Below are positions 7,480-61,492 of a DNA stretch of 64,000 nt, piece by piece. Source of the DNA: Bryoerythrophyllum caledonicum (lineage: Eukaryota; Streptophyta; Bryopsida; Pottiales; Pottiaceae); the NCBI GenBank assembly GCA_963971425.1, contig OZ020525.1, forward strand, positions 3,703,560 to 3,767,559. Reading direction: 5' to 3'. The notes below the pieces were generated by a model. The model worked only from the letters and a program-made list of their open reading frames with translations. It made no database searches and had not been told where the DNA came from. Each line of letters starts with the position of its first letter. Within the stretch, counting starts at the first letter, position 1. The translations under genes and the position numbers were made by a program.

Positions 7480-7481
7480 TA

Positions 7482-18359: not shown

Positions 18360-18417
18360 CAATAAGGTGACATTCAAATTGGCCATTTAGTAGTTCTGGA
18401 GATAGTGTCCTACACTG
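18360..18417. repeat. 58-bp solo Tc1 TIR remnant (first tandem unit)
   Basis: Begins CAATAAGGTGACATTC after a TA and stops at CCTACACTG, where the coiled-coil exon sequence takes over. It is a terminal fragment of the same Tc1 element, left by internal deletion or rearrangement. Confidence 0.85.
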
Positions 18418-18536
18418 AACAACCTTGACCCTATCTTCACACATCTCGTCAATATTCCTCACCGCACGTTCACATTCATCTTGAACGCGCTTCAACTCAA
18501 TGCAATGTTGTTCTGTAATATTCTTCAATTTGACCG

Positions 18537-18736
18537 NNNNNNNNNNNNNNNNNNNNNNNNNNNNNNNNNNNNNNNNNNNNNNNNNNNNNNNNNNNNNNNN
18601 NNNNNNNNNNNNNNNNNNNNNNNNNNNNNNNNNNNNNNNNNNNNNNNNNNNNNNNNNNNNNNNNNNNNNNNNNNNNNNNNNNNNNNNNNNNNNNNNNNNN
18701 NNNNNNNNNNNNNNNNNNNNNNNNNNNNNNNNNNNN
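18537..18736. other. Assembly gap (200 N)
   Basis: Exactly 200 N, a placeholder size. The true length is unknown; it falls inside a tandem repeat. Confidence 1.
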
Positions 18737-19504
18737 GAGGTGTCTTGGTCATCACCCGCTGGGGCACTCACTGAAGATGCGCTCACATTTGAAGATGCAG
18801 CATTCGCACCTCCAACACTTTCCGATTTTGGCTTCGAAGAAGCTACGAGCAAAAAGCATCCAAAAGCTTGCTTAGTATTTTGACAGATACGAGATGGCAA
18901 TTGAAAGTGCGAAGTGAGATTACTATGCAATTACCGTAGTTAAATGTTTGTAATATTGACCACCAGCCTGTCTAGATACTGTAGATAAAATATACGGATT
19001 GATAGACTAAACATTAAAACCTCGATTAATTTTTCGTCAATTATTCGTCGAACGGAGGAGACATCTGTTGGGAATCATCGAACAGGCCTTCTAAAGCACT
19101 CAAGAATGGTGCCAAGTGGCGCAAAACTTCCGAGTGTCATTGCCAACATATTGCGTAAGTTCAATCTTAACCTCCGACGAGATGTCACTGATTAGTATAA
19201 TAAGTAGCAATAAAGGACCGTGTGGGGTGAGCACATTCTAAAAAACTAGTGACAAGAAAATCTTGATACATAGAGCGTAGAAAGTACCAGTGGCAGGATT
19301 TGGTAGGTTGGCGTCAGAGTTTGTTAGGGAGATGACATTGGCCGGAGTTGGATTTAAACTCCGTAGGCCAAGAATGTCAAGTGATTCGCCCCCGTGCAGA
19401 TTCTGACGAATGCTTTTAGCAAGCGTTAGTAACTTTCCAGATTCTGCTCCATGCTTGTTTCTTCTTTTCTCTTTGCGATGATTGGGAAACTCACGCTGCC
19501 TGTA

Positions 19505-29702: not shown

Positions 29703-30120
29703 AGCTATGACTTCTATGGTTTCTACAACAGGTTTGGCTTCAGGTGTCTCTGACTATAAAACTGGCTGTCTAAACAACAAAAGAGAGAAAAAGAAAACTT
29801 CATGTATGTCTACACAAGCGGAGGATGATGAAGAGAGCAAAATAAAATAAAATTGAAAGACATGAGCGAAAGTGTTGGCTGCTCTCGAGACTGCTCGGGC
29901 GATTGCACTCACGAACTTAAACCATCAATCCTCAACAAAGTTGCCGGGTCAGGGAGCCCGGTAAGTTCCCTGCATGACAGCCTCGTGTATTGGACGTGAT
30001 TGGGTTCGTGAAGCACCCCTTCACCGTTCCTCACTCCCTACTGCGATCACTACTACGTGATTGAAGGAAGAGAGAAAAGTAAAAAATCAGCAAGAGAACG
30101 TGAGATACGTGCTGATAACG

Positions 30121-41805: not shown

Positions 41806-41900
41806 GTTGTTGAGAGCTTTTGGAGCAGTTTCGGAGCTGGCTGGTTTGTTTGCCAGGAATGGTGAGTTAGCTGGTGACCTTGAGTTCAGGTGTAGTAGAG

Positions 41901-43215
41901 TATGGAATACTAAACGGGTGGCGACCTCCTCCCCTGACGTCGACTTCGTCCTGGTGCAGGACGACCTAAACCCATAGGTCGGCAATGGAAACCTATGGCA
42001 CTGCGACGAAAACCCATAGGACAGCGATGATAACCTATAGGGTGGCAACGTGGACGTATAGGTCGTCGACGAAAACATATGTCACGGCGACGTAGACAAT
42101 TGGGTGAAAACGGTGACGTTCTGCGTAAGCACAGAGACTTATTCAAAGAGGATGCTATGTGAAATTGAGGGACATACACCAAAACCTTCATATTTTTCCA
42201 CTTCTGGGCAGTTTTTTCACTTCTGGGCAGATCCCCAAATTTTTGGGATGCTCCGAACTCAACTCCGAACCCAACTCCGAACCAAAAAAATGTCTTTTTA
42301 ATTGGCGTGAACGAACAAATTGGTTGTACAGGTCTGGAGGCCTCCCGACAGGGTTTTGGTATCTCTGGGAAGGGTTTACGTTGCCGTGCTATTGGTTTAC
42401 GTTGCCGTGGAGGTGGACAACGTGGGAGTGGACGAGGTCGACGTCGACGTCGTCGGAAATTAGTGGAACTGGTGTATGCAGCATACAACAACAATTGGAA
42501 CGTTAATGATCATTCACCAACAATTGGAACGTTAATGAAAAAATGGGTAGAACTATTGGGTTGCAATTGTTATCATATACACACACCAATTGTTATCGTA
42601 TGTACACACCAATTGTTATATATGCACACACCAATTGTAGATCAAAACCAGACCAGGTCAATCACATGCACTCATATGCACACACAGTAGATGTGGATCA
42701 AATTTCCAATTGAATTCTACAAGCAACTAGCCGCTCAATCATTCCACACATACAATTCAGGATTCAATGTATACATTGCGCAGGACAAGTGTAGACATTA
42801 CACAGGACCAAAGGCTCTCTACATAGAAATTTAACCCCGCATCACACCAATCTTCCACGGATATTTCAAAACAGAATTCGCCGGTCATTCCAAAACAGAA
42901 TTTCAATCTAATTTCAAGCAGATTTCCCAACATTCATTGTATTGCTCAAGGCAAACGAACATCAACACAGTTGTTTTACTTCGGACGGGAAAGACTGTGT
43001 GCTCCGCTGTAAAAGACGACTGAACTACCAATTGGAAAACCAGCAGCCTAAGTGGCACATGAAAATGGGAACTACCAATCGGCTAAACCAATTGAAATAG
43101 CTCCAACTTGCTGGTCCCATACCCAATTCCCAACTACTCTGTATATGCCTGAATACTACTCTTCCAATCGGACAGAACTACCACTTCACCCCCAAACACT
43201 CACCAATTGGCTAAA
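41901..43215 (+). repeat. Left terminal inverted repeat of the giant transposon
   Basis: Matches the reverse complement of 60,262-61,431 in blocks, with indels. Identity is highest in the outer 110 bp and around the CCAATTG-rich inner part (42,480-43,210). It contains GA/GT-rich stretches that translate to Arg/Gly runs but look non-coding. Confidence 0.85.
41970..42095. repeat. Six exact-length 21-bp subterminal repeats (left end)
   Basis: Six head-to-tail units of exactly 21 bp with consensus ACC(C/T)ATAGG-C-GCGACGAAA, starting at 41,970, 41,991, 42,012, 42,033, 42,054 and 42,075. The right end has three clear units and one degenerate one (61,279-61,362, inverted). Twenty-one bp is two turns of B-DNA, so they would present binding sites on one face. 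Confidence 0.85.
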
Positions 43216-43261
43216 CTATAAATGCCAATTAAGGAGCAACATGTTCAAGCAATTTAACAAT

Positions 43262-46200
43262 TTACGCTTTCCCATACTCTGTATGGACACAGGCATAATT
43301 TAACTTAGCAGCCATCACCACATCGCTAGAGTAGTTCGGGATTGTCATCGTTCGAAAGCAAGTGGAAGCTTTAGGCAATCGGTCGTCCGACAACGTCGGT
43401 GGGCCTCCAACAATTGTAACAGGTTCATATGCAAAGAAATCCGAGTCGGTGATGAACTTGTTGAGCTTGTACCTTTGCGAATAGGTCATGTTCGAGACGA
43501 CTCTCTTGAAGCGGTCTACTGCATTGTCGTCCATGTCTTGAAAGTGGCACATCTTACAAAATGTCTGCGCATCAACTCAAGTTTCTGCTCCAAAAATCCC
43601 CTCTATATTCTCTGGTACAATCTGAGACAATGTCTACTGATGCTCTTGGCAGTTTGCTTGGAAATGAACGCATTGGATACTGTGCACGATGCCATGGAAA
43701 ATCTAAATCCGAAACGCAAGCTCTGGGCAGCATGCTGAGTTGAGCGGAAAACATGCTCTAAGATCTGAGACCGTAATAGGGCAGTTGCCTTCTCCGAGAA
43801 GAATTTGATGTCCTCCTGGGACCCAGCCACTTTCAACTTTGAAACTTGGATCAGAATATCCGATAGTTCAATATCACCAAGGACAGATTCCCTTGCAGCC
43901 ACTTGCTGCTCAATGTCCTTTGCAGTGATCAACGATTTGATGGCGACCCAGTGCGATGGTTTGATTGCACGATAGTCGGATTCGTACTTGTCAATGGATG
44001 ATCGATCCCACTCTTCAGGAACACATCCGATAGCCAGGGCCAAAGAAGACACTGTCATTGGTCGATTCACTTGTTGCCCATACATTGGTAGCAGGAACAT
44101 GAGAAGCCCAAACAACTCCAAGTTCTCCGTTCTGAAGTTGTCAGACAATTGGGTTCGCGATAATGGCCTCAAGTACCGCATGTGCCCTCCATCGCTCATT
44201 GAAAATATAGATCCATAGGTCTGCACAATTTAGCAACACTGCTTATTCAACAAGTAGCACATTGAAGAATGGGTACATTCCATTGAGGCGAGAGCACATG
44301 CCTCCATGAAGTTCTACCCCCAATGACCCCCCGATTGGTCCATGAAGTTCCAAACGACAGACAGACACCCTGATTGGTTCATGAAGTTTCAGCCGGCATA
44401 TGCCCCAATTGACATAACTACTAATCAATGCGACCACAATTCCTAATAACAAAGACATCAATTGCTAAAAAGAGAGACCCTAATTAGATAGATTGCCATT
44501 GGGGTCCAATTTACTTACCCAGGAATCATTCCAAAACTGATTCCAGCATGAGCACATGAAGCTGCGGATGGGACCTCCACAATCAATAGTGCCTCTCTCA
44601 TGGAAGTCTTCGGTTTCATCGGAAAGCCCAGTGCCATCCAGATTGAATTTGTAGGTCACTGACAGTAGTGGGAATGGGTTTCCTTTGACCTTCGCATTCC
44701 GATAGACATTCCGAAGCTCACGCAGTTCTTCGCCTGGACGGACCTACCAATTGGAATTTCCACAGCTATTACATGAATAAAGGCATATTGGGACAGTATT
44801 TGGCAAAACAAAGTGGGAGGATGTGATATACCAATGGGGAGGACGTGATATACCAATAAAGGCATACTGGGACAATATTAACGATTAGAAGAAGTCCTAT
44901 ATAAAAACCAACATTAAATGCAGATAGAAATGACACCAACCCATTCGTTGAAAATTCTTACCAATAGTTTATGAGGTCTATACTGCCATAGAGCATTTCG
45001 GTACTCAGCGAGAAGGATCAATCGGAAGTTGCAATTCTGGTATGAACGCCACAACTCTTCTTTCCGCCAATAGGCGTTCACGATCTCTGCTTGAACGATA
45101 TCTGTCTTTTTGCGGTTCTCTTCAACCTGCCACTTCCGATAGCGTTCAACCATGGGTGCAATTGATTCCAATGGTACTGCACCATCCATCTCTGCTTCAA
45201 CAACTCTTCCACGGATTTGTTCTTCCGGAAGCTCAATAGCAGACACACCAAGGAAGTGATCCAATCGGTCCCAAGTTCTCCAATCAGGGTGCGCTTTGTC
45301 TCGGAAGAAGCTCTCCACTTGCGAAACTGTCCACATAGAAAACTCGTTGTCACTCAATAGAGTGGGCACTGCGGTTTCCATGTCTACGCTCAACAATCCT
45401 CTTCGCAGCAATCGTCTTGAATTCAGCGCATCCCATGCTGTCCGCACATTCTCGTCCGCAAAACGGTTTGGATCAGTGGTTGTGAAAGTGCTCCAGAATG
45501 TATCTTTCGAGTTCTCTTCAGGACTTCGTTCTTGTGCCATGCTCGCTATGATTGCATCTGGAAATTCGTCTATGCATAAGGAATTGTATTCTTTGGTAGC
45601 CTTTGTCCAAGCGTCGTCAAGTGCGATGATTGTTTCTTCTTCCAATTGCAAGAGACTCCGACCAGATAATTCAGTCACATCATCGTCCAATTGGACTGGA
45701 TTGGAGGATGATGCACCGTGAAAATTGCCAACCACCGGACCCGCTGGTAATCGGCAGTTGCGAGGAGAGGGATTGCTATCGACGTTATGGGGAGTTTGCG
45801 ACCTAGGCAGAAGGTCCTCTGTTTCATTCACAGTTGTAGCGCAGTCAACAGTAGAATGCTGCTGCGGTACAGGTTCCGAACAAGGGACACTTGATGCGTA
45901 TTGGAGCCTCGGCCTCACTACACGTCCACCGACGTTACTTCGGGAAGACCATGTGACAGGAAGAGGAGCATACGGCTGTTGTCTATCCAAAATGTTCCCG
46001 CTGCCGGGCGTTGCTTGTGCAGAGAATGTGGGCTCTAGTGACCGCTGGGTCCCATCCAGGTCCTCGTCACTCTCCTCGAATGTTGTGTCCTCTGAGGGCA
46101 TAGGGGCCGGAATAGGTAAGTTGATGGTTAGAGCCCCCTCCGCAGTTGAGATGTAGGCAGAAACCTCCCATGGCTGCAGCTGTTTCAGTGGATCGGCAAT

Positions 46201-47087
46201 GTAGACGGCAGGGCCATATTGCCCTCGCTTTGGAATACACTTCCATGTAGCATTCCGCAATAGTATGAAAGGCCTCGACATGTTTGCGAAACCCTTCCCC
46301 ACGGTCCTCTAGAAAACCAAGCAACAATTGGATATTGAGTTAGAAGCCTTCAAAATAGCAATACACATTCGTGAAGCCAATTGATAAGCTGATATATTGA
46401 GTAAGGCAGAGTACTTACACGCTCCTTTGAATTGTACAGGTGATAGAAATATCCCCCTTTCTGAGCCAAATCGGGTTGGTCATATATCTCAACCGCCATC
46501 TCAGCAATTGCGCGTTGACCAGTTCCCTCTCGAAAGGGTTCCAAAAAATAGTGATCTCCCCATGGAAGGTTAGGGGGCCTTCGTAAATATATCATTGTCG
46601 TCCTCACACTCGTCACTAGAGTCTACACAAAATGAACAACCAGCAATAGTAGGAAGTCAAAAACATTCTAACCAATTGGAGGAAAAACAGAGTTGCGAAT
46701 TGCCCAATTCTAAGAACAATGTCTCCTGAAGATGGCAAATAGAAAACAATCACCACGGCAAAATACAAATTCCCAATTGTACCTCAACAACTCCTGTCCT
46801 CCGAGCTACAATCTCCATCCCATCGGGAATACAAAAGGTCTTTGTGTGCCACCCAGCTTGCCCCGGGGAGGGTGCTGCAGCAGATCGATGTCGGGGCCGC
46901 TGATACCGACTCCCAATAGTAGCCGAACGCCTGCCGGTAGTCCAGACTGCGTAGGACCAAAAGTAGAATTCGCAATGAAGTTCCCCAATGGATCACCTCC
47001 ACCAATGGGGGTTGCTGGCGGTGTACCAACTGGAGGTCGAAGGTAAGATGGATTAGACTGGGAGTACGTATGTTCAGCCATTGTCAA
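43262..47087 (-). pseudogene. HECT-type E3 ubiquitin ligase carried by the transposon
   Basis: Exons in phase: 46,622-46,419, 46,308-44,962, 44,743-44,519 and 44,220 to about 43,640, then a last block to TAG/TGA near 43,262. A Pro/Gly-rich 5' block (47,087 to about 46,791) probably joins upstream after a frame change near 46,815. The C-terminal part is a HECT domain. The N-lobe has the GG-(P)-R motif (GTIDCGGPIRSFM, about 44,580) and LELFGLLMFLLPMYG. The C-lobe has LPKASTCFRTMTIPNYSS with the catalytic Cys codon at 43,358-43,360, followed by KLNYAC. HECT enzymes pass ubiquitin from E2 to substrate through this Cys. Upstream is a long acidic, poorly conserved region. Defects: a frameshift near 43,640 and a TGA at 43,577-43,579. 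Confidence 0.78.
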
Positions 47088-47296
47088 GCCCGCACCTCGA
47101 ATCCCCGATAATATTCAGTCTGCCAAAAATCCAGCCAGGTTGAATCAGAATGGCAGAGTTGACACAGTTGAAAACCAGTTTTGCTAAGGCCCATGACACC
47201 CTGCCTCAACTGACAGCCCCATTGGTCACTTCAAATTAACAATTGCATTTTAGGTAAGGAGTGAGCGTAGAATGTAGACATGTTCAAAAGATCAGG

Positions 47297-47660
47297 TTAA
47301 AACAACAAGCAGGAGATGTGCGTAGTGGTGACGAACCGAATTGACGCGGTGCAAAAGCGATATACGATGAGAAAGAAAACCATTGGCAGCAAGTTCAGCA
47401 GCCACAAGAAGCACACATCAGTTGATGAGCGCCAAGAGAGCCTAGGTAGATCCCTGCTGGCTTCGCAAGTACTCTCGTTTTGGTGTTCGACAGCGACGAC
47501 CACGAAGTCCACCATTGGTACCGTTGTTCTAAGAGGCACTCGATGAACTGAATGGGTGCCGTCTACCATTGGTACCATTGTCCTCAGAGGCACAACATGA
47601 ACTGAATGGTTGTTGTCTACCATTGGTACCACGCGCCCAATAGGCAATCAATGAACGGAA
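47297..47660. repeat. 54-bp tandem repeat between the two minus-strand genes
   Basis: About 2.6 copies of a 54-bp unit starting ACCATTGGTACC-TTGT (47,513-47,647). A related inverted segment lies at 59,293-59,390 upstream of the plus-strand ORF. It could be promoter or transposase-binding DNA. Confidence 0.7.
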
Positions 47661-47959
47661 TGGCACCGGCACAATGTCCTCCATTGTGCAGGGACGATAT
47701 ACCCAGGTTTAGGTACCATGCTTGTGAAAGAATACATAATTACATATCAGTCTCACAAACAATTGGTAGTTCACACTTGTGTTTGCCAAAACAGACTCAA
47801 AAACACTATAAATTGATTCACTTTTGATGGTCCCATCTACGCTGGGGACAAAGGAACGATAAATTGGAAAACATCGAGCATATATGCTCCATGAAAATTG
47901 TAACTACCTACTGACTAATTTCCTCATGAAAATGGTAACTACCTATTGACTAATTTCCT

Positions 47960-48165
47960 CATGAAAATGGGGACTACCTGCTCGGCTGAACCAATTGAAA
48001 AAGCTCCAACCTTACATCCCATACCCATTTGGCAACTACTGTGAATAAGCCTGAGTACTACTCTCCCAATCGGGAAGAAGTACGGAGTCAACACCAAAAC
48101 TCACCAACTGGTTAAAATAGAAATGCCAATTCAGCAGTAGCATGATCAAGCAATGTACAACCGGT
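47960..48165. repeat. Internal copy of the inner TIR segment after the integrase gene
   Basis: A diverged copy of the inner TIR sequence (CTCGGCTGAACCAATTGAAA ... AACTCACCAACTGGTTAAA), lying just 3' of the integrase stop. The same sequence follows the HECT gene (43,060-43,260) and the 59,561-60,253 ORF (60,262-60,420). Confidence 0.75.
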
Positions 48166-48221
48166 CGTTGGAGCCTGGATTGAGACTAATGGTGCGGCAT
48201 TTTGCTGTAAACCCCACGTGG

Positions 48222-50042
48222 TCAATGCAGCGCAGCATTGGCTAAAAGCTGACAAACCTCCCGTTGTTGCCCAATGGAATGGTCTAAAGAACGTCTCTGG
48301 AAAAACTCCAAGAAGCTCAGGTGTGGAGATGCTAAAGCTGCAGCACATTCCACTCTCATGTTCAAGTGCAATAAATATTTGTTGGTGTCATCAAAACGAT
48401 CGCAATTTAGATTGTATGCTTTGTCCCGTAATGCAACAATCGCATCACTCAAAATATTTTGTGGTGCACTAAAGTCCTCGTGAGCTTGCAATCCGACAAC
48501 CTCCTCTACCTCGGTTGGTAGTACATTGGTAGCTTCTTCTGCTTGCGGGTCTAATCCATTGCTTTCCAAGCCATTGTCCTCACGAGCGAGGAAACGTGCA
48601 TTGTGTTCCTCAGATACTATCGGAGGCTGCAGCCCATAGTAGAGACATTCATTCAATCGGAATGCAGCTTCAGGAACATGCCCTGCAATAGAACGTCCAT
48701 TTTCGTTGATACTCCTCACACGGTGATTGTTCCAGGCCTGTACAAAACAATCTAGATCTTGTTGTATGCGTGGCACAAAGACCAACTTCAAAGAACTCAA
48801 GTGCCAGTCGTTTGATAAGTCCACCAACCCTTCGTTGCACAAATAGGTGAACAGGTGTCTGTAGTACCATACCACTTTCGTCCACACTTGACCCCACCAA
48901 TGCTCAATTCTCTACATTTGCACCAAGATCTCAAGATTAGAAACCACTTCACCCTAAACCCTCATACAGAAGTCTGGAAACACATTGCTCACCCTATAAC
49001 ATGCAAACTTAGCTTCAACCGATTGGATGTTGGTTATGCTAGAAAAAACCTGATTGTGAATGGAAGACCCTGTCAAAAATGGGGTCCGAACATTTTGTCT
49101 AGCTTGCTGAATGTCGTCTCGCACAAGAGAGTGTTCAGATGCGTAGTCTGATCGAATCCGGATTGGATGACCGTAGAGATCAATCGCTGACTTGTATGCA
49201 GAGAAGATAGTTTCGGCCTTCTTATCTGTAGCAACCACAGCCCATAATACAAAGTGCATCCCTCCATCAATTGCCCCATGGATTTTGATTTTCCATTTTG
49301 CCAACTTGTCATATGCTGGAAACAGTGGAAAATAGTAGCCAATCAGTTTAATATGGGGGTATACTAAGATCCAACTGAAAATTAGAGGCTAATACAATAA
49401 GTGCTAACAAATTGAATTGGGATAACCGTAGCAGCGCACATAGCTGGGAGCTAATAAAATTCATTCCCACTTACAGTCCATGTGCTAGAGAATCATAGGC
49501 TCCGTGATGTCGTACTGCCCTCGAAAAAGAGCCCTCACTTGCCTTCTCTGCATGTGTTCTGGTTGCATAGATACGAGGGCGTTTCGCACTACTTCCCGAG
49601 GAACACGAAGTCCCAAGGAGCTGCGAAGACTAGCAGCAACCGTTCGTATACCCCAATTGCAACCACCACGCGATATTGGTACATGAGAATTGATTGCAGT
49701 CACAAGTTCATCAAAACCAATAGAGTGATACACTCCACCCCATCCCATTCCCTTCAACTGCCGTGACAGAGAATTTCGAGTCATGCAGAGTGAATCTGCG
49801 ATTGCATTGAACTTCTCCCCACAATTTAAGGCATCCTCCACATAGGCCAACCGCTCTGCATCAGAGAAACCAGTTGGGTTCAAATGTGGTCCCAGCGCTT
49901 CCAATTGAGGAGCACCATGATCGGCCGAAACGTCATCTCCAGAAATTGAATTGTTCTCGCTGGAACTTTCATTGCCATCTCTGCTATAATCCGAATCTGA
50001 ATCCGACTGGGCATCCAAATCCAAATCCCGATGAGATGCCAT
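48222..50042 (-). pseudogene. Integrase-core (DDE) transposase of the giant element
   Basis: Three exons, 50,042-49,475, 49,315-49,050 and 48,911-48,222, with GT-AG introns of 159 and 138 nt. They sum to 508 codons in one frame. The N-terminus is acidic and disordered, followed by a helix-turn-helix (FNAIADSLCMTRNSLSRQL). The RNase H-fold integrase core follows: HMD (Asp 49,476-49,478), IHGAIDGGMHFVLW, RIRSDYASEHS (Asp 49,146-49,148), RIEHWWGQVW (Glu 48,903-48,905) and FVQAWNNHRVRS. This layout matches the large integrase-core protein family abundant in fish, cnidarian and mushroom genomes. A TAG at 49,485-49,487 replaces the conserved Trp just before HMD, so this copy is truncated. The C-terminus beyond the core is unrecognised. 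Confidence 0.85.
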
Positions 50043-50494
50043 TGGTGATATCGATCAGGTTAGAGCACTGCAATGAACATGCAAGCTAAAAATCGTCAGT
50101 AAACACGGTAACCATACTCATTGAAGATCTCACTTCTCCAAAACTCACGCCTTGCAATTGGTGCTAAGAACACAAAATCAGTGTTGACATACCGATTGCA
50201 GTGATCATCTACCACGTCCCAACCTTTGAAGTCCAGCGTCGAACCTCCTCAACTGAGCTTCAATCCATTGGCCGCAAGTCCACCTTCCACATGCTTCAAC
50301 AGTTGGTTTAGGAATTCCAATTGGTGAGCAATTGCAGTTGGTGTGCACCAACCAATTGGCGAGCACGCGCAACCTATTGAAACAGTACTTGTATGTGATG
50401 GTTAATGATCCCAATTGGCAATCAATAAACGGAATGGGCAGCCACCGCTGGCAACGTCCCAATCAGCGACCAATTTCCGGAATGGCACTTTTCT
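50043..50494. other. Upstream region of the integrase gene
   Basis: Non-coding, rich in CCAATTG/CAATTGG words. Likely the promoter side of the integrase gene; no clear TATA element. Confidence 0.4.
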
Positions 50495-50722
50495 AATATT
50501 GAATGGCAAAATAATGGATTTACTGTTTTACGGTGGAGTTACCTGAATGTGACAGTCGTCTTTTGACCGATAATTCAGTACGATGTGTCATGGCCAAAGA
50601 GAAACCAATGGGCTTCACATACCAATATTGAATGGCAAAATAATGGATTTACTGTTTTACGGTGGAGTCACCTGAATGTGACACTCGTCTTTTGATGGAT
50701 AATTCAGTACAATGTGTCATGG
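50495..50722. repeat. 99-bp direct repeat, two copies
   Basis: Copies at 50,495-50,593 and 50,624-50,722 start AATATTGAATGGCAAAATAA and differ at a few bases; a 30-bp spacer separates them. Confidence 0.9.
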
Positions 50723-50723
50723 G

Positions 50724-50772
50724 TTTTCAGGGTTTAGGATTTAGGGTTTTGGGTTTGGGGTTTAGGGTTCAA
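50724..50772. repeat. Degenerate telomere-like TTTAGGG tract
   Basis: Contains GGGTTTAGGATTTAGGGTTT and GGGGTTTAGGGTTC. It is an interstitial plant-type telomere-like tract marking the edge between the CCAATTG-rich part and the GC-rich/AT-rich core. Confidence 0.8.
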
Positions 50773-50939
50773 TGTCATGATGTAGGGGATTTATACAAAT
50801 TCTAATATCATGGGTGGGTTTGGGAATGAAACGCAAAGACTCGAAATATGTTTCAATATTATTTCAATACGCATTTGAATTCTCAAATGGGTTTGGTTCT
50901 ATTTTCTAGTGCATGTGGCAGGAAACGCAAAAAATCACC

Positions 50940-51490
50940 ATCTGTGAGGCTAGCAAAACCGGATTTCTTCCCTGGCTCAGCGAGGCTGCCAACAGTGGGG
51001 CGGCATCGGGCGGGAGGCTCTGGCAGACACCCGGCGGGAGGCTGCGGCTACGACCGGCTACGACGACCATGGACAGGAGGGCGGAGGGCCACGGGCATGA
51101 GGGCCACGGCCTCTACACATGAGAGGCACGGCCACGGCGACTCGTCACGGCCTACGGCCACCGGGGGAGGGCNNNNNNNNNNNNNNNNNNNNNNNNNNNN
51201 NNNNNNNNNNNNNNNNNNNNNNNNNNNNNNNNNNNNNNNNNNNNNNNNNNNNNNNNNNNNNNNNNNNNNNNNNNNNNNNNNNNNNNNNNNNNNNNNNNNN
51301 NNNNNNNNNNNNNNNNNNNNNNNNNNNNNNNNNNNNNNNNNNNNNNNNNNNNNNNNNNNNNNNNNNNNNNNNAATTGGAACGCGCCCGGCCCTTCATGAA
51401 CGCGCCCGGTCCAGATTGGTACGCGCCCGGCCCCAAATGCTGCGCGCGCGGTCCGAAGGCACGCGCCCGCCCTTGATGTGACGTGGAAAG
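50940..51490. repeat. GC-rich degenerate minisatellite around a gap
   Basis: Left of the gap are ACGGC/GGGAGGCTG words. Right of it are about five units of roughly 24 bp on ACGCGCCCGGCCC (51,380-51,475). Base composition is far from that of the neighbours. The sequencing gap is probably caused by this tract. Confidence 0.65.
51173..51372. other. Assembly gap (200 N)
   Basis: Exactly 200 N, a placeholder; real size unknown. Confidence 1.
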
Positions 51491-52169
51491 CCGTCTGACG
51501 TGTCGTGCACACGTGTTTTACCAGGGGGTAAGTTGAAAATTTGATTTAGGGTTCGTAATTTTTTTTACACGCAACTGTCCGCCAAAAAGTGCTGTCCGTC
51601 CTGTCCGTCCATCCTACTGTCCGTCCGTCCGCTGTCTTTGGGCCCCTGTCCGTCTATGTAGACAACCCTGCTTTTGTGGAACTTGAAAAGACTTGTCCTT
51701 CTAGAAAAGAATCTGTCAGGGTTCTTCCAGCAGTATCTTGACGGGCATCGCAAGCCATATTCGAGGAGGATATCACAAGCCACATAGTGAGTTTTTTTTT
51801 GTTTTTTTTTGGTGTGGTTGTTTGCCGCATGCAAGAGGCATGCCGTCGACCCCATCATGGATGCATGGCCTCTTAGGCTAAGGTTTGATTGTTGGTGGTG
51901 ACTAGTTTTTTTTATTTTTTATATATATTAAAAACCTTCCAAATGGGTGTATGCCTCATCAGCTTTCACTTTTATCTTCAGACCTAAAACATAGCGATGT
52001 TATGAATGCTCATGAGTTCATAAACTATGAGGTAGACTTTGATTTATCAACATCATTCAAATAGTTTCACGGGAGTGAAAGGAACAAATATTTAAATTAT
52101 TTTTTTAAAGATCAGTTCTTCTAAACTGGGTTGCATATTAAATTCCATACTATGCCCCATCCGCACTAA

Positions 52170-52489
52170 TTGGGACCTCAACAACAATAATTAGGGTCCC
52201 CAACAACAGCTAGAGGGACCCCAACAACAATGGTTGGGGCCCCCAGCAATAGCTCCTGGGGCCCCAACAACAGCCGTTGGGGCCCCAGCAACAGTTGCTG
52301 GGGTCCCCAGCAATAGCCTCTGGGGCCCCAACAACAATCGTTGGGGCCCCGAGCAATAGCCTCTGGGGCCCCAGCAACAGTCGCTGGGGCCCCCAGCAGC
52401 AGTCGCTGGGACCTCCAGTAGCAGTCGCTGGGGTCCCCAGCAATAGCTTCTGGGGTCTCAACAACAACTGTTGGGGCTCCTACAACAAT
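52170..52489. repeat. 21/22-bp minisatellite, about 15 units
   Basis: Head-to-tail units of 21 or 22 bp on TGGGGCCCC(A)(A/G)CAACAGTCG, each holding the palindrome GGGGCCCC. The alternation of 21 and 22 bp shifts the frame, so it is not coding. Confidence 0.93.
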
Positions 52490-52776
52490 GTCTTCGTCTT
52501 TTTGTCTTTGTCTTTTTATCTTTGTGTTTTTCTATTTTACTTTCAACACGAAATTGAACATACTTTTACTTTATAATAATTTTAGACAATTTTTTTTATT
52601 TTTATAAATTCAAACTGATACTTACATTGTAAATTTATTATTATAGCAAAAAAAAGTAAAAGCTTGTAGAAGTTAGCTATAAATACTATTTACAAAAAAA
52701 TATATTGTTATTGTATAGAGTAAACATATATAATTATCAAAATATATCGAGATATTTATTGCCTTATATTCTGAAG

Positions 52777-54324
52777 ATGGCTGAGCTTGTGCAACCTAGT
52801 GCAAAAAAACCTAGAGTAGGACAAGTTATTGCCCTAAATTTTATAGAAGATCAGCAAATCCTGGAGTTGGTATATGATTCAAAGAGTAGAGGTAGTAAAA
52901 CTGTAGGGCACACCAACAAAACATTTGACCACTTATATGCCATACCTTGTAGAAAAATCCTAACATGGCCGTATTTCAAAAATATATTTACCAATCCTTC
53001 ATCTAGGGTAGACATGACCATAACAAAACAATAGATTTACGTCCATTATTGCCACAAACTATGCCATGATTGTGCGCAAAAATCTTTACGTTGCTCTATA
53101 TGTGAACCGACACTAGATCCTGATTTTGCAAAGCATACAAGATTTATTTTTGATATGTCTATTACCAGAGACATTGAAATAACTAGTCTTGAAGACTTCC
53201 ATCAAACATTTCTCTGTTTGGAGAAATTTTTGAAAGAAAAAAGTAAAAAAAAGAAAAAGAAAAAGGAACATGTTCCATACAAAATTTTCCAATGTTTATT
53301 GGCGAGAAAAGGATTGTTAGAACTATCCATTCTTGAGGCATTCAACATAAATATAGATATGCAGGTAATCGTTAGCTACACGAACATTCTAGCTGATATC
53401 ACAAATGAAGAAAAGCCATATTGGAAGAACAAAAAGTTTGAAAAAAGTTGGGAAAATGTATATGAAAATAATCATTTGCAACCAATAACATCAACTGCTG
53501 TATTATTGAAAGATGGAAATACTATAATCAACAATAAAATATTGGATCCAAAAAATATATCACTGAAAGAGATTTTATTTATTTACATCCCAAAAATATG
53601 GGACAATGATGTTGAATATCAAAGAACATTAGAGGCCGCAGATATATATTATCAGACCGCTCCGTTTGTAGGAAAATCTAATCAAAAAGACCCAAAACGA
53701 GGTATTTATAAGTCTGTAGGCCACGGCTATGTTGCCCATACAGGAGAAAAGTCAAAAGGAGATATCGTTAAGTATGATCGTAAAAACATGTCTGAAGACA
53801 CAAAACGTTCCTTGAGGGGCACAGGAAATTCTATTGCAACGGCAATGTGGAAGGCGTTAGATTTATTTGGAGCCCCTGTAAAAGAATTTTTTGCTCATCA
53901 ATTTCAACATATGGATTGTATTGCAATTGGGTTGAAAGCATATCCAACAAAAGTGCACCAATTGCACTTGTCAAAGAATTCTTTTATAAAGCCACATATT
54001 GATAAGAACGACTTGGATTGTTCATTTATATGCTGGTTTACAGAAGGACATCCGCAAGGAGGCGAATTCAGAATCTTTCAACACTGCATGAAACTTCAAA
54101 ATAATAATGGAGCAGGTATATTTGTATTTAGCAAATATGTTAGCCACGGAATGCTACGGTTCGATGCCAATTCACTATCAACTAATAATTTCAAATTGAG
54201 CCTAGCCCTTGTTAACAAATCAGCAATTTGTGAAAGGCTATCAAATCAACTAACAAGTGGAACACCTATCACTTGGATAGATTATATTGATCATCTAGAT
54301 AGTGAAAGTCAACAGGAAAAATGA
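52777..54324 (+). pseudogene. TET/JBP-like 2-oxoglutarate/Fe(II) dioxygenase
   Basis: An AT-rich single-exon frame from ATG 52,777 to TGA 54,324 (515 aa) with one in-frame TAG at 53,032-53,034. The N-terminal part has a basic start (KKPRVGQVIA) and a Cys cluster (CHKLCHDC ... CSIC). The C-terminal double-stranded beta-helix shows FIKPHIDKNDLD (His 53,995, Asp two codons on), GGEFRIF and VSHGM (distal His 54,145-54,147), the 2-His-1-Asp iron triad. The basic residue expected to bind 2-oxoglutarate would be the Lys in NFKLSLAL. Spacing and the LHLSKN-HIDKND context resemble the TET/JBP dioxygenases that oxidise 5-methylpyrimidines in DNA. The substrate is inferred. Codon use is strongly AT-biased compared with the integrase and HECT genes. 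Confidence 0.65.
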
Positions 54325-54815
54325 ATAATTGATTTGTAAAGTGCAATTTTTGACCTCCATGCATGGATAGATGCATGAATCAGACTCTTTACAATTTTTA
54401 AGCTTTCAAACATAGGATCTTTTATCTAAATCTATCTAGAAGTATTGTTGTACATTTCATCTACAGGATGTGCATTATTTTTGAGATTATAACATTTGAA
54501 AATTGTCCTCAAGAATTTATTGTGCTCTTAGAAGCTTGAAATTACAAAACTACAATTTTCTACCACTATGTGTTCATTGAAGCATGGATCATATATTTTT
54601 TTTTTTTTGTAATTTGAACTATATGATCTCAAAGATGATTATAACAAAAAAATATTGATTCAAATTTCAACCCTAACATGTGCACCAGATTTGAGATCAT
54701 AACCCAGAAAATGACAGACATTCAAAAATTTATTCCCCAAATTTCTGCAAACCAGCCAATATGGTTTTCTCTTATCAGTTTCATCCATTCAAATTTTTTC
54801 ATCCAACATGAAAAT
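54325..54815. other. AT-rich 3' flank of the dioxygenase gene
   Basis: No supported feature; a poly-T run occurs at 54,596-54,609. Confidence 0.4.
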
Positions 54816-55042
54816 CTCATCCTTTATTGCCGGATACATCCATCTCATCCTTCACTGCCGGATACATCCATCTCATCCTTCACTGCCGAATACATCCATC
54901 TCATCCTTCGCTGCCGGATACATCCATCTCATCCTTCACTGCCGGATACATCCATCTCATCCTTCACTGCCGAATACATCCATCTCATCCTTCGCTACCG
55001 GATACATCCATCTCATCCTTCACTGCCGAATACATCCATCTG
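54816..55042. repeat. 28-bp minisatellite, eight units
   Basis: Head-to-tail 28-bp units reading ATACATCCATCTCATCCTTC then (A/G)CTGCCG(G/A). There are no unique spacers, so it is not a CRISPR-type array. Confidence 0.95.
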
Positions 55043-58000
55043 AGACGTCCAATTTTCATCCAACAGTTGAAAAACATCCACAGAACCTATTTCATCCACG
55101 CAAATTTGTCATCCGAAATAATTTTCATCGACTGTATCATTTCATCCAGATTTTCTATGTCATCCAAAGTGTATGACGTGGCAAGGGGTCCATCCCCACA
55201 ACCCTTTATTTTGAAAACTGCCCATCTAAAATTCAGTGAAATTTATTTTGTCAACTTCAAAAAATTCCCAAAATTCGAGATTGCGTTGAAATTTGTTTTG
55301 GTGATACTTCTCATTTACCTCAACATATCTACGGTTTGGATTTCCAATTGGACACATTTAGATTACCCTTTTCATAGTTTCTATTCTGGAGAATGAAAGG
55401 CAATTTCAGCACACCCCCTTTCACAAAATCAAGGATTTGTTCCACTTCCAAAGCCCGTATGAGGCTCAAACTTTGTGAGCTTATACCTTACTTCCATACC
55501 TAAAGGAAATGATGATCCTCCATGGATCAAATGTGTTTACAAATTATACTTTTTGGGCATCAAAACTTAGGTATACCCTCGGGGCAGTGTCAAAAAAAAC
55601 TTTTACAATGACTTCAAACGTTATAATCTTGCAATTCGTACGGTGGATTGTTCTCAAATTTTGTATACACCTTTTTGGGTAAGGTAGTTACAAGATCCTA
55701 TGGTTTCATATTCAATATCATGTCTAAATTTAGAAAACAGTAGGTTTCTATCAGTAGGGGTATGTTTTTGGCAGTTTTGGCTCCAAAAACACCATGGTTA
55801 GTTAGGGGTTAAACAACTGTGTTGGGCACCCCAATTAAAATATTAAATGAATTTATAAGGTATAAATATTTTATGATAATTACAAATTAAAAAAATCAAT
55901 TCCTAATTGAAGCCTCAAATCTGGGCACACAATCGTGAGACCACGGGTAAATGAACCAGGTTTTCCAATGGGAAGTGATATACCAATGGGAAGTGATTTA
56001 AAAAAGTATTAAAAATAATGAACATTAATGTCATTCCATTATGAACCATGCTACAAAATATCAGTGGCACTGTGAGTCCTAAAATTCCTTGATCATTTCT
56101 CACCAAATTCACTCCAGAACTGCTCTTTCCAAAGAAAAGAGCAAAAGAATCCAAAAAAAAAATTCTTTGCATCTCGAACCATTTTAAAAAAATTGTAAAA
56201 AAAAATAAAAAATGTATTTTTTATGTGATAAAGAATTATTTTTAAAGGAGATGATAAGTGAATCTTTTATGCTTTGTTTCATATTGAAGTTATTCACGAA
56301 AAATTCAAATAATTTTAGTTTAAAAATGCCCATGATAAACTCATAAAATCAAGTAATTAAAAATTTTACGTGTCTAACATAGTGGTCTGTAATGATTAAT
56401 TTACGTGTCTAACATAGTGGTCTGTAATGATTAATTTTCACGTCTTCACAAAATCAGTTCTATTTTATTAAAGACAAAAAAACCAAGGCATTTTTCCATC
56501 CAAACCAACAATCGGAACCCACCTTCTCGGCTCACTGCGCAGATTGCGCGTGGCAGCATATCAGACCTGTGCAACCATGTCCACACCATCAAGAACCAAG
56601 ACGACAGAAGTGATATAATAAACAAGGATCATGAGGTGGAAGGCGGTGAATCATACCACATGGAGGACTGAGGGAGAATGGAGTGGGAATCTACGATGTC
56701 AATGTTTGGTAGTTGCTGCAACTCTTAGAGCAGCCCTTGGAAAAAAATTCTCCAACCTTAACCCCTGCTAGACAAACAGTTCCCTCCAAGCCGAAAAAGG
56801 AGCCAACATTCAATCAAAGCAGGCGTACCAATTACCCAATGCCGACGCAGTTATGCGCACAAGGTTCCCAATCCTCACACGGGTGTAGGTAAGTAAGGAT
56901 TCTGAAATTTGTTTGAGCAAATGCATTTGTAACTCTACGGGGGCTGCTGTGTTCCGTTGTTTCGTGTGGCAGTCCATATGCTTGCTTCTGATTTTACACG
57001 GTTCCGTCATATGAAGTTAATCCCCCATAATCGTCAAGTTCAGGAATGTGCATACACGTGGAGAGGGGATAATTATACTGTTATTTTACAGTGATAGCTA
57101 ATAGAATTTCAATTCCAACGCAAGTGATTTCATATTTTCCGCTGAAGAATGTACAAGTCCTGAATTTTCAAATTGTGTGGCCATTGTTAGTGGCTGGCCA
57201 TCAATACGTATCCTCCATAATCAACAACAAAAAATAAGGGTCCAACTAAAAGCATACCTCTATTTGGTTTTGAGTTGGTGGTAGTCCAATGAAAGGGGGT
57301 TGGATACTCCCCATATATATAAGCGCTCGATATAGATTTAAGTTAGTTTCAGAGAAGCTTATCTTACTATTACACCAAACTCTACACAAATTGTTCATTC
57401 ATGGTTGAGGTAGACCATCCACATCAAATTTGCATCAAGCACATGCATGTCATGCACATACATGCCTGCCTCCTCTTCTATTATAGTCTAAATCTGAAAC
57501 ATCTTTAACAAACAATATAGGACAAACTATCCTTCAATTATAGTATCAAACATTAAGCCCTAAAAGCCCAACGAACCTACGGGGTCATATTTGGATTCTA
57601 GACAGGTACCTAAAATTTGAAAAAATATTATTTGTTTTTGAAATTTTAGGTGTAGATTTTCCCTGGTAAGAGCTACGTGGAAATATTTTAAATATTATTT
57701 TTGGATTCACAGTTCAAAAGTTATTACCATTCAAAGGACAATATGGGGAGTCCGGGCAATTTGGGTAGTTTGCCAAAAGGTTCTATTGACATTGAGCTTT
57801 TTTTAAAATATAGAGAATATTTTTCTACTATGAGATTGAAAAAAAACTTATTGACTTCTGTATAAAAAGAACATTTTCACCTAAGTCAAAACTTTTCACA
57901 CAAGGGAGAAAAAAAAACTTTATTTTCTACAAAAAACCTAGAGATCTTCAAAATTTTCACTTTTTATTTTTTTGACCACAACATGTGTTGAAAAACTTAT

Positions 58001-58900
58001 GATTAACCATTTGGATCATCAATCTATAGCATCTTGAGTTCACAAAACAATGAAACTAGAAATGGAAAATTTTCTTGAGTTGAAATACTATAATCTTTCA
58101 ATCTGTGCAGTATATTGCAACCTAAAAGATATAGTGACTTCATATAGATGTCTAGTTCAAGATCCTATGGTTAAATGTTGCAATCCTATTTTCTAAATAT
58201 TGCATGAATCTTTTATCTCTATGTTCTACCTTGTGTTAGGTCATTGGACGCAATGAATTACAAGTATATGGAGTTGTTCACAATATTATAAAAAATTGCA
58301 ATGACAGAGGGTATAGAAAGTAGCCATTTACCTAGGCAAAGCAATTATAATTTTTAGTTGAATGTCGGATCTAGAATCCAAACAATAAATAGAGTTATCA
58401 TGCCTTCTTTCATCAATAGCAAAAATATTCATAGAAACAAGACGTAAGGAGAAGAGAGCAGGAGAATATTCTTTAAGGAATGGAATGCAATAAGACGATA
58501 GAATTTGACACTGTCTGAGCTAGGCTTATTTCAGATTTTTTTATCTTTAAGATGTTGGATTTTATTTTTTTGTAATCATGTTATCTCGTCACTGTCGGTC
58601 GTTTGTTTGGTACATGTAATTCTTGGTATGAAAGATGTAGGACTAGAGGAATACCATCTTTGATTAGAAGTGTCACGGAAGTAGAGGAAGTAATGGAATG
58701 CAATGCATGGACGGGAATGTACGATTACGGAGTTCTTGTTGGAAGAAAAAGAATAACAATGATTTGTATTCAATAATTTGAATTTATATGCTTGTCCGGC
58801 TATTATTAGGTGAATAACAACGACATATAACCCTAAATCACAACGACTTTGTCCGATTGCCACATTTTGCCCTCTAAAATGTCAGTCATTATTACTGTAC
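55043..58900. other. AT-rich core without recognisable gene
   Basis: About 3.9 kb, low GC, no ORF with a recognisable motif on either strand. A 27-bp direct repeat (ACGTGTCTAACATAGTGGTC...) lies at about 56,370-56,430. A TATATATAAG box lies at about 57,313. It could be a nested, decayed insertion or spacer. Confidence 0.4.
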
Positions 58901-59292
58901 ATTAGTTACAATGAATTGAACCTCGGTGAAATAAGTCCACTTTCCATTGCTGAAGATTAACCTTGGAACTTAAATAGGATAAAGTGCACAAAGTTTGTAA
59001 GTAGTGACCAAAGGGAGCAACGTCGGGAGTGGCGCCGCGGGAGCTGGCTGGCCATCTCCCCAGACAGTTCCCAAAGTCCCGGTTTTGGACTAGTGTTCGT
59101 ATGCTGCAGTGAGTAATAATTTCAGTACTTCCCGCCAAATTCCTCATTGGTTCGACAATGAGACTATGACTACGATATTGACATACGATTGAGATATTAG
59201 CTGAATTTGTGATTATTCTATTACCTGAGTTGTCTACGTATGCAGTGCTTCTGTCGTACCTGGTGAATTCCAATAGTCACTACGTTAGTTGA

Positions 59293-59560
59293 TTGCCTAT
59301 TCGGACCATGGTACCAATGGTAGACGGTAGCCATTCAACCTATCGGTTTCGTGTCGGGACAATGATACAGATGGTGGACTTGGTGGCTGTCGTTGTCGCC
59401 TTCATACGAGTTGTACACGATGCCAATGGAGATCCCGATGGGCTGCACAGAGAAACTTTGAATTACTTTCCAGCTCCAACACTTCTTTTGGAGGCTGGGC
59501 TTGCGGCTAGTTTGCTCTGTTTTGCAGATTTGACAACCCAATTGGAGGTTTAGTGATAGA
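59293..59560 (+). promoter_or_regulatory. Upstream region of the 230-aa ORF
   Basis: Contains GGTACCAATGGTAGACGGTAG, related in inverse orientation to the 54-bp repeats at 47,513-47,647. CCAATTGG words resume here after the AT-rich core. Confidence 0.4.
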
Positions 59561-60253
59561 TTGGAGGTTTGTGTGTTCAGTGCAGTTTTTGTGACACCCA
59601 CATTTATAATGGCTGCGCTTCGAGGTGAATTTCTTTGGGAGGGGTGTTCCGACCTCCAGCGTATCCTACGCTTTGGAGACATTTTAGTTACCTTAGTAGA
59701 CAGTGATGTGGTCCGCATTAAGTTTTGGGAGCACTGTGACTCCGGCCCACTTCTGTCTTCGTTTCGTGGTGCATGGATTCTTGCAACTTCTGACATGCGC
59801 ACAGTTTGTTTGGAGAATGCTGGTGTGGACAATGGTATAAACTTGCCAAATTCTTACAGGGCATTATGTGTGTACAAGTGGGAGCGGCAAAGGGATGCCT
59901 GGATGTGCGGTGGGTGTCCCAAATTGGTATCTCTCCCTTCCCATGGTGGACTTGGATGCCTTGGTCGGACTGAACCATCATGTCACAACGTCTGCCTATT
60001 TCAGAGGAATGACGGACCGACATGTGATCCGGCTTTGGAGGTTAGTTGGTGGGATCCTACCATGCCTATTGACGATGCTGTGATTCTGGGTGTCTGGGAC
60101 AAAGTTGGCTTGAGTTCCGACCTGATCAGAAGGAGACTCTCTAAATGGGTAGTTGGCCGAGGTGTTCCGTGGATGAAAGAGGGTCCTACATACCAGTGCC
60201 TCATGCGGAAGACGTCGTTTGACAATCGACTTGAATTTGGCCCAGTAATGTAA
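59561..60253 (+). CDS. Unrecognised 230-aa protein of the giant transposon
   Basis: Single open frame to TAA 60,251-60,253. An ATG at 59,609 (MAALRGEFLW) may be the true start. The middle holds Cys/His pairs (WMCGGCPKL, SCHNVC, PTCDPA) that could bind a metal. Trp-rich segments (KFWEHCDSG, SWWDPTMP, GVWDKVG) suggest a globular fold. I do not recognise the family. It stops 9 bp before the inner end of the right TIR, mirroring the position of the HECT gene at the left, so it is probably a genuine gene of the element. Confidence 0.5.
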   Translation: MEVCVFSAVFVTPTFIMAALRGEFLWEGCSDLQRILRFGDILVTLVDSDVVRIKFWEHCDSGPLLSSFRGAWILATSDMRTVCLENAGVDNGINLPNSYRALCVYKWERQRDAWMCGGCPKLVSLPSHGGLGCLGRTEPSCHNVCLFQRNDGPTCDPALEVSWWDPTMPIDDAVILGVWDKVGLSSDLIRRRLSKWVVGRGVPWMKEGPTYQCLMRKTSFDNRLEFGPVM

Positions 60254-60261
60254 GTAAGATT

Positions 60262-61431
60262 GGTGAGTGTTTGGGGTGAAGTGGTAGTTTTTTCTGATTG
60301 GGAGAGTAGTATTCAGGCATATACAAAGTAGTTGGGAATTGGGTATGGGACCAGCAGGTTGGAGCTATTTCAATTGGTTCAGCCGATTGGTAGTTCCCAT
60401 TTTCATATGCCATTTAGGCTGCTCGTTTTCTAATTCGTAGTTCAGTCGTCTTTTACAGCAGAGCACATAGTCTTTCCCGTCCAAGGTAAAACAACTGTGT
60501 TGATGTACTTTTGCCTTGAGCAATACAATGAATGTTGCTAAATCTGCTTGAAATTAAATGTATACACTGAATCCTGCGCAATGAATACACTGAATCCTGA
60601 ATTGTATGTGTAGAATGATTGAGCGGCTTGTTGCTTGTAGAATTCAATTGGAAATTTGATCGACATCTACTGTGTGTGCATATGAGTGCATGTGATGGAC
60701 CTGGTCTGGATTTGATCTACAATTGGTGTGTGCATATATAACAATTGGTGTGTGCATATATAACAATTGGTGTGTACATACGATAACAATTGGTGTGTGT
60801 ATATGATAACAATTGCAACCCAATAGTTCTACCCATTTTTTCATTAACGTTCCAATTGTTGTTGTATGCTTCCAGCAATTTCCGACGTCGTCGACGTCGA
60901 CCTTGTCCACTCCAACGTTGTCCACCTCCAATTGTTGTTGTATGCTTCCAGCAATCTCCGACGACGTCGACCTCGTCCACTCCCACGTTGTCCACCTCCA
61001 CGGCAACGTAAACCAATAGCACGTCAACTGAAACATGTTGGGAGGCCAAGCAACCTGTACAACCAATTTGTTCGTTCACGCCAATTAAAAAGACATTTTT
61101 TGGTTCGGAGTTCGGTTCGGAGCATCCCAAAAATTTGGGGATCTGCCCAAAAATTTGGGGATCTGCCCAGAAGTTTTTCTTGAAACTCATCGGTGTGCAA
61201 CGTCACGCTCTGGGAAATTGTTCAAGTTCAAGGGACGTCCAGGTAAACCTAAATCGGCGTCAAAATCCTTATAACCCTGTATTGGAGGGTGCCGCAGGTT
61301 ATCGTTGCTGTCCTATGGGTTTTCGTCGCAGTGCCATAGGTTTCCATTGCCGACCTATGGGTTTAGGTCGTCCTGCGCCAGGACGAAGTCGACGTCAGGG
61401 GAGGAGGTCGCCACCCGTTTAGTATTCCATA
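60262..61431 (-). repeat. Right terminal inverted repeat of the giant transposon
   Basis: Inverted match to 41,901-43,215. It holds a local duplication of the GTCGACGTCG-rich block with GCTTCCAGCAAT (60,865-60,980) that is single in the left TIR, and fewer 21-bp units. Confidence 0.85.
61279..61362. repeat. 21-bp subterminal repeats (right end)
   Basis: Units at 61,342-61,362, 61,321-61,341 and 61,300-61,320 are inverted matches of the first three left-end units; 61,279-61,299 is degenerate. Confidence 0.85.
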
Positions 61432-61492
61432 GTAGAGATCAAGGTAATCTTCGTCCCTGAAGAAACTCTAGGATTCATAACCGAAAAAAATT

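Follow-up and report, generated by a model that had tools for sequence, protein, structure and literature searches.

Introduction

IS3EU/GingerRoot DNA transposons, IS3EU being in Repbase since 2013 and GingerRoot coming from Selaginella lepidophylla, are characterised in the available portion of Kojima and Bao 2023 (PMC10045372) by TA..TA ends, usually 6-bp target duplications and a transposase in which the first Asp stands 100-300 residues in. IS3EU elements of rusts end in TAYGG..CCRTA, and the TET-bearing (TET+) IS3EU elements of fungi hold the TET gene between the transposase and an alpha-kinase, TET having been proposed to counter silencing by methylation (Kojima 2025, PMC12730594, in the sections available). 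Here we report a transposon of 19,531 bp (positions 41901-61431) in a stretch of 64,000 nucleotides from Bryoerythrophyllum caledonicum (assembly GCA_963971425.1, contig OZ020525.1, positions 3,703,560 to 3,767,559 of the forward strand; the whole stretch is called the window). We interpret it as a giant composite member of IS3EU/GingerRoot that carries, as cargo, a nested piggyBac piece with a dioxygenase gene resembling CMD1 and the TET/JBP family, lodged there before the giant family spread; as an explanation of the whole locus we give this a probability of roughly 85%.

CMD1 is an algal TET homologue, and plants methylate transposons. According to the accessible text of PMC7854593, CMD1 of Chlamydomonas converts 5-methylcytosine (5mC) to 5-glyceryl-methylcytosine in a vitamin C-dependent reaction: H345, D347 and H397 are its iron ligands (H345A and D347N lose activity), D350 contacts N4 of 5mC, W358 contacts vitamin C and also hinders 2-oxoglutarate, and R244, F245, H249 and R418 are essential. 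The active demethylation described in plants uses ROS1-type glycosylases (review PMC11065753, in the part available).

Results

A giant element in three copies

The element ends in TATGG..CCATA and is flanked on both sides by GTAGAG, as an earlier note made from the letters of the window had claimed for its 19.5-kb transposon. Over their outermost 136 bp the arms are identical at all but three positions (133 of 136), and broken inverted homology extends 1.2-1.3 kb inward from each end, which bears out the terminal inverted repeats (TIRs) of about 1.2 kb read there. When the first 500 bp of the element were searched against the assembly to which the window belongs (437.4 Mb in 894 contigs), 11 matches came back, including both ends of two further elements, copies of the kind that the note had proposed to look for by their ends and own 6-bp duplications: C7:30191671-30209156 (17.5 kb, duplication CAAATC) and C4:23890471-23909499 (19.0 kb, duplication ATCATG), both with identical 16-bp ends. 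The TATGG..CCATA termini and a 6-bp target duplication are thus present in three of three copies. A lone element, which the note would have taken as a refutation, is thereby excluded. The flanks of the three sites share no similarity over the 300-600 bp compared, so the copies are separate insertions, and between 98.1 and 98.7% of their aligned bases are identical, which suggests recent movement. Two further ends, at 75% and 83% identity (C174 and C14:19.37 Mb), mark related families.

The integrase-core transposase that had been recognised in the window is present: its open reading frames (ORFs) match PF24764 (Pfam), and a spliced model of three exons, 507 amino acids long in C7, is open in C7 and C4, with a premature in-frame stop in the window copy. 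Candidate catalytic residues are D189, D246 and E281 (C7 transposase), 34 residues separating the second from the third. NCBIfam ranks IS481 first (4.7e-7), then IS3 (0.0016) and ISNCY (0.0044), all below the models' curated cut-offs; the PDB gave no match, and a general Pfam scan, not aimed at an HHCC domain, found no zinc domain on the transposase ORFs. At least 18 protein relatives were found at E ≤ 0.001 among the best 7,993 candidates scored, all with PF24764; those named among the matches listed come from the liverwort Calypogeia fissa, two fungi, one insect and one fish. Against a 74%-identical relative in an element at C14:19.36 Mb, the ratio of nonsynonymous to synonymous change (dN/dS) is 0.157 at a synonymous distance of about 1.1: the transposase is under constraint.

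The element shares with IS3EU/GingerRoot its TA..TA termini, 6-bp duplications, IS3/IS481-like DDE transposase and a first Asp 100-300 residues in; it differs in its size (17.5-19.5 kb), its broken 1.2-1.3-kb TIRs, a HECT gene, a fourth gene and the nested piggyBac cargo. The earlier note had proposed an undescribed giant lineage. This does not hold, as the features are those published for IS3EU/GingerRoot in the available parts of PMC10045372 and PMC12730594. We rejected a categorically new superfamily because the TATGG..CCATA ends, the 6-bp duplications and the IS481/IS3-like DDE transposase fit IS3EU/GingerRoot; the giant element itself is not a new superfamily. A Polinton/Maverick element, or another giant element of viral type, which would have the size, the long TIRs and the 6-bp duplication, was rejected likewise and is extremely improbable: Pfam on 8 of the 30 listed ORFs gave PF24764 only, without PolB, ATPase, protease or capsid, in agreement with the note, which had seen none of the Polinton hallmark genes, the transposase is IS481/IS3-like and the ends are TATGG..CCATA.

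A nested piggyBac piece carries the dioxygenase gene

Inside the element, homology to the closest copies of the dioxygenase region stops at 55812-55815 in TTAGGGGTTAA, at TTAA, and beyond that end the window and four other loci (L027-L030) diverge; judged by its sequence, this boundary is a piggyBac terminus. As marks of piggyBac we take a TTAA target, TTAACCCC..GGGGTTAA ends (GGGG/CCCC) and PF13843. Both piggyBac ends were seen solely in one free copy, C14:9635891-9644449 (8,559 bp, TTAACCCCTAA / TTAGGGGTTAA), which has an 841-codon ORF, two parts of which match PF13843 (3.4e-27 and 3.2e-47), and which also holds an open dioxygenase frame. TTAA target, TTAACCCC..GGGGTTAA ends and, in the free copy, the PF13843 transposase are therefore shared with the piggyBac superfamily; the CMD1-like gene aboard is unlike it, as is the window piece in holding the right part only, with homology that begins inside piggyBac at 51901, past the transposase, and with no PF13843 there. 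A search of the open-licence literature (titles and abstract openings, among the matches listed) found no paper on a piggyBac with a TET/JBP cargo gene.

The four genes first read in the element do exist as four gene regions, but they do not form a single native set, since the dioxygenase gene is part of the piggyBac fragment; we rejected it for that reason as a native gene of the window element. The 2-oxoglutarate dioxygenase of that reading is a dioxygenase-like gene, CMD1/TET-JBP-like, without a Pfam match. Separate nested insertions had been named as what would overturn the single transposon; the dioxygenase gene does sit in a nested piece, but that piece travels with all three copies.

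In a tree of the dioxygenase DNA (15 rows; L039, L040 and L041 left out, BLAST pieces of ≤150 bp dropped), the giant copies group together, all three in a single clade (100/99) whose neighbours are L027-L029 and then L030; the dioxygenase of the IS3EU element at C14:19.36 Mb sits outside that supported group. Shared position and tree together show that piggyBac inserted once, before the giant family spread, and the outside placement indicates that the second IS3EU element must have gained its dioxygenase gene separately.

GC content drops to 29-45% (500-bp steps) from about 52.4 to 58.9 kb. A 28-bp tandem repeat in eight copies (54814-55041) is open in all three forward frames.

A probably CMD1-like dioxygenase, constrained among carriers

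With more diverse profiles the sole match in the PDB (177,635 sequences) was CMD1 (E 0.17 and 0.083), and for the paralogue L040 CMD1 was the only PDB match, at E 0.0027. Residues were compared in alignment A5 (10 rows, P0024-P0026 left out; A4 lacks P0025 and P0026) and, via BLAST alignments, in 17 genome copies, of which A5 also contains three; L044, which has an internal stop, and L046 (P0028) were translated and kept out of the alignments. CMD1 numbering was derived by hand with an offset of 374, chain positions 719, 721 and 771 being H345, D347 and H397. The iron ligands align to these three residues in all 10 A5 rows; the HxD pair is present in 17 of 17 genome copies and the distal H in 16, the exception being L027. 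The D350-type cytosine contact and F371 are kept in 10/10 rows and 17/17 copies, W358 in 10/10 and 15/17 (one of the two exceptions is a stop), T399 in 9/10 (M in the window) and 17/17, and I356 in 9/10 rows. The gene thus shares with CMD1 the iron ligands, D350 and most of the aligned vitamin-C contacts (W358, F371 and T399), over an alignment of about 65-75 residues that places R244, F245, H249, R418, S335, T337 and S414 outside the comparison. We consider it very likely that the gene encodes a TET/JBP-family dioxygenase, and we judge the predicted product more CMD1-like than TET-like. It is unlike CMD1 in the short span and weak E-values of the similarity, in the V342 and R410 positions and in being transposon-borne.

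Relatives of the dioxygenase were absent from viral contigs and phages, and a plasmid search with the DNA of 41901-45900 found none; in PHROGs three unnamed families were each matched by one of seven dioxygenase members (best E 0.021).

Among open dioxygenase frames dN/dS is 0.24-0.40 in 13 of 15 pairs, with 0.50 for L027-L028 and 0.53 for L039-L040; for the nine pairs that include either L039 or L040 the synonymous distance exceeds 1 and dN/dS is rough. The gene is under constraint among its carriers. This bears on whether the piggyBac piece landed there by chance like any other nested insertion, without benefit to the giant element and with a gene in decay, an account that we place a little below even odds. 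Different lesions disrupt the gene in the three giant copies, and the roughly 79 dioxygenase loci of the genome (below) offer many donors, as such an account would have it; the constraint in other carriers, four full-length matches outside the window without a stop (one of which, L027, lacks the distal iron ligand) and a nearness of IS3EU transposases to dioxygenase genes above uniform expectation speak against it.

Spread through the genome and pairing with IS3EU transposases

Searched against its own genome, the dioxygenase ORF has at least 99 matches (a lower bound, as the best 98 of 148 candidates were scored); joining those within 6 kb of one another leaves about 79 loci. We examined 16 stretches around 15 loci beyond the giant copies, and pieces of three more. 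Similarity to the piggyBac transposase is found at five of the 15 (L027, L028, L029, L030 and L038); L034 lies near an IS3EU transposase, L041 near Helitron and PIF1 domains and L040 near DDE_1, the last two by nearness only. L042, in reverse complement, has a piggyBac-type left end at 6043 and dioxygenase-region homology at 7238-9678, about 1.2 kb on, and is perhaps a piggyBac derivative without transposase.

The last exon of the transposase has 41 matches in the genome, at 36 loci, and at seven of these a dioxygenase match lies at a distance of 2.3-6.9 kb; uniform placement with a 15-kb limit, a model that ignores the clustering of transposons in repeat-rich regions, gives 0.2 expected and a maximum of four in 20,000 trials. 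The giant copies are three of the seven pairs and represent one insertion event, leaving five cases; three of these five, C9:6.48 Mb, C12:6.16 Mb and C14:20.25 Mb, hold diverged dioxygenase genes (36-53% identity). A second IS3EU family (L034/L035, C14:19352401-19372300) has its dioxygenase in the opposite relative orientation and is flanked by a 1.25-kb inverted repeat of 95.8% identity; no HECT match occurs in this stretch, and its left end was not found within the 500 bp examined.

This pairing speaks for a dioxygenase that is a native, long-standing passenger of IS3EU, as in the fungal TET+ elements whose TET lies between transposase and alpha-kinase (PMC12730594, available sections), piggyBac having taken the gene from IS3EU. 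The diverged genes of those three pairs would fit such a history, yet the window segment has a piggyBac terminus as its exact end and groups with the piggyBac copies, the copy in the second IS3EU element faces the opposite way and comes from outside the giant clade, three of the seven close loci are copies of one insertion, and clustering in repeat-rich regions lies outside the uniform expectation; we regard this history as unlikely. A piggyBac insertion before the spread of the giant family remains our preferred reading. No paper on CMD1-like genes with plant transposons was found in the same literature search.

Points against the preferred reading

Several observations weigh against an IS3EU giant with CMD1-like piggyBac cargo. 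Features and general families are what place it there, because Repbase IS3EU was set beside it by description and not as sequence. The left junction of the nested piece, at 51901, has no piggyBac end. Among the copies the piece differs by 1.8-2.0%, against 1.0-1.2% for the left backbone, more than a single shared insertion alone would explain and possibly the result of gene conversion from free copies. None of the three giant copies has an intact dioxygenase gene, the lesions differing, and so it may no longer act there. As to its identity, no Pfam dioxygenase family matched the window gene, P0019-P0021 or L039-L041; against the PDB, phmmer with the window gene gave one implausible match (0.018), paralogue L039 another (0.87) and a first profile of four rows none. 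AlphaFold2 models were poor (mean pLDDT 31 and 35), and Foldseek with the second, poor model returned nothing at E ≤ 0.001. The V342 position is conserved in none of the 10 A5 rows, which have I or T instead, and the R410 position, 13 after the distal H, is never R in the family. By E-value the proposed link to CMD1 is weak.

HECT gene, fourth gene and other features

The HECT ligase of the earlier note is likewise present: the C7 model splices to an open frame of 911 codons, its C-terminal part matching PF00632 (E 9.5e-13) and its N terminus being provisional. The window copy has one frameshift and one stop; in C4 three of four exons are open, exon 3 not being located by motif search. The open-licence literature gave no paper on HECT with IS3EU, or on DNA transposons with a ubiquitin ligase. 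The fourth gene had no match in Pfam, PDB or NCBIfam; it has a relative of 47-49% amino acid identity in the C14:19.36 Mb IS3EU element (dN/dS 0.369, synonymous distance about 1.1). Coordinates are given in Table 1.

Table 1. Features of the giant element, in window positions
Feature	Position	Strand	Remarks
Target site duplication GTAGAG, left	41895..41900		sequence
Left TIR region	41901..43207	+	outer 136 bp against right arm 133/136; broken homology to about 1.3 kb
HECT E3 ligase gene	43262..46622	-	proposed exons 46419-46622, 44962-46308, 44519-44743, 43262-44220
IS3EU-type DDE transposase	48222..50042	-	proposed exons 49475-50042, 49050-49315, 48222-48911; PF24764
Right part of piggyBac transposon, nested	51901..55812	+	ends TTAGGGGTTAA; transposase part absent
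CMD1/TET-JBP-like dioxygenase gene (putative)	52777..54324	+	inside piggyBac fragment; in-frame stop 53032-53034 in window copy
AT-rich remainder, without recognised gene	55813..58900		common to the copies
Fourth gene, 214 amino acids	59609..60253	+	open in all three copies
Right TIR region	60259..61431	-	pairs with left TIR region
Target site duplication GTAGAG, right	61432..61437		sequence

C7 lacks two stretches (1,482 bp and 324 bp) at or beside the AT-rich remainder. A run of 200 N in the window copy (51173-51372) falls in a GC-rich stretch where C7 and C4 are shorter. The backbone (41901-50720 and 58900-61431) contains 45 CAATTGG motifs and the flanks three; CAATTG, dense in the backbone, peaks in the TIRs (11 in the left TIR against 0.9 in shuffles) and is at shuffle level across 51.9-58.9 kb (3 observed, 4.6 expected). 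The CAATTGG repeats could be a candidate binding motif.

Elsewhere in the window, two near-identical, open, 343-codon ORFs of Tc1/mariner-type transposase lie about 16 kb apart (5882-6913, forward, which matches DDE_3 in Pfam, and 22727-23758, reverse), Copia-type retrotransposon pieces with gag, zinc knuckle and GAG-pre-integrase lie at 27321-29753 (reverse), and a further N run falls within 18346-18930. A GC-rich frame of 579 codons at 2002-3741 (reverse) matches xyloglucan fucosyltransferase PF03254 (3e-55); it is the chief pointer to a plant host, next to the liverwort relatives of the transposase, in keeping with the plant setting that had been supposed.

Discussion

The element's own backbone would run TIR, HECT ligase (reverse), transposase (reverse), fourth gene (forward), TIR. 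Its ends and duplications point to cut and paste with a 6-bp stagger, the DDE transposase presumably acting on the TIRs. Before the copies split, the right part of a piggyBac with its CMD1/TET-JBP-like gene would have lodged between transposase and fourth gene, and shared position and tree show that it has since travelled as cargo. The dioxygenase probably modifies 5mC in transposon DNA, which would weaken methylation-based silencing, and the HECT protein may act by removing a host restraint.

If this is true, plant transposons bring along an enzyme of their own that edits methylcytosine, just as those of fungi bring TET; IS3EU gains a giant family with a HECT gene, and the element shows the gene of one transposon turning into the cargo of another. 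What appears new is a CMD1-like family borne on the transposons of a plant, for which the open-licence literature gave no paper among the matches listed. More tentatively, and with the balance of our judgement against it, a CMD1-like, possibly vitamin-C-dependent 5mC-modifying enzyme may be a weapon shared by unrelated plant DNA transposons (piggyBac, IS3EU, probably also a Helitron and a DDE_1 family), the modified base freeing the transposon from silencing and IS3EU having picked the gene up repeatedly, in parallel with the fungal TET+ elements.

With those fungal TET+ IS3EU elements the giant family shares TAYGG..CCRTA ends, 6-bp duplications and the position of a dioxygenase gene between the transposase and a further gene facing the other way. 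Kojima 2025 (PMC12730594) has 11 TET+ lineages, piggyBac not among them in the sections available. Unlike the fungal elements, the giant family has a plant host, a HECT gene and a 214-amino-acid gene in place of the alpha-kinase, and its dioxygenase appears CMD1-like and to have arrived on a piggyBac piece.

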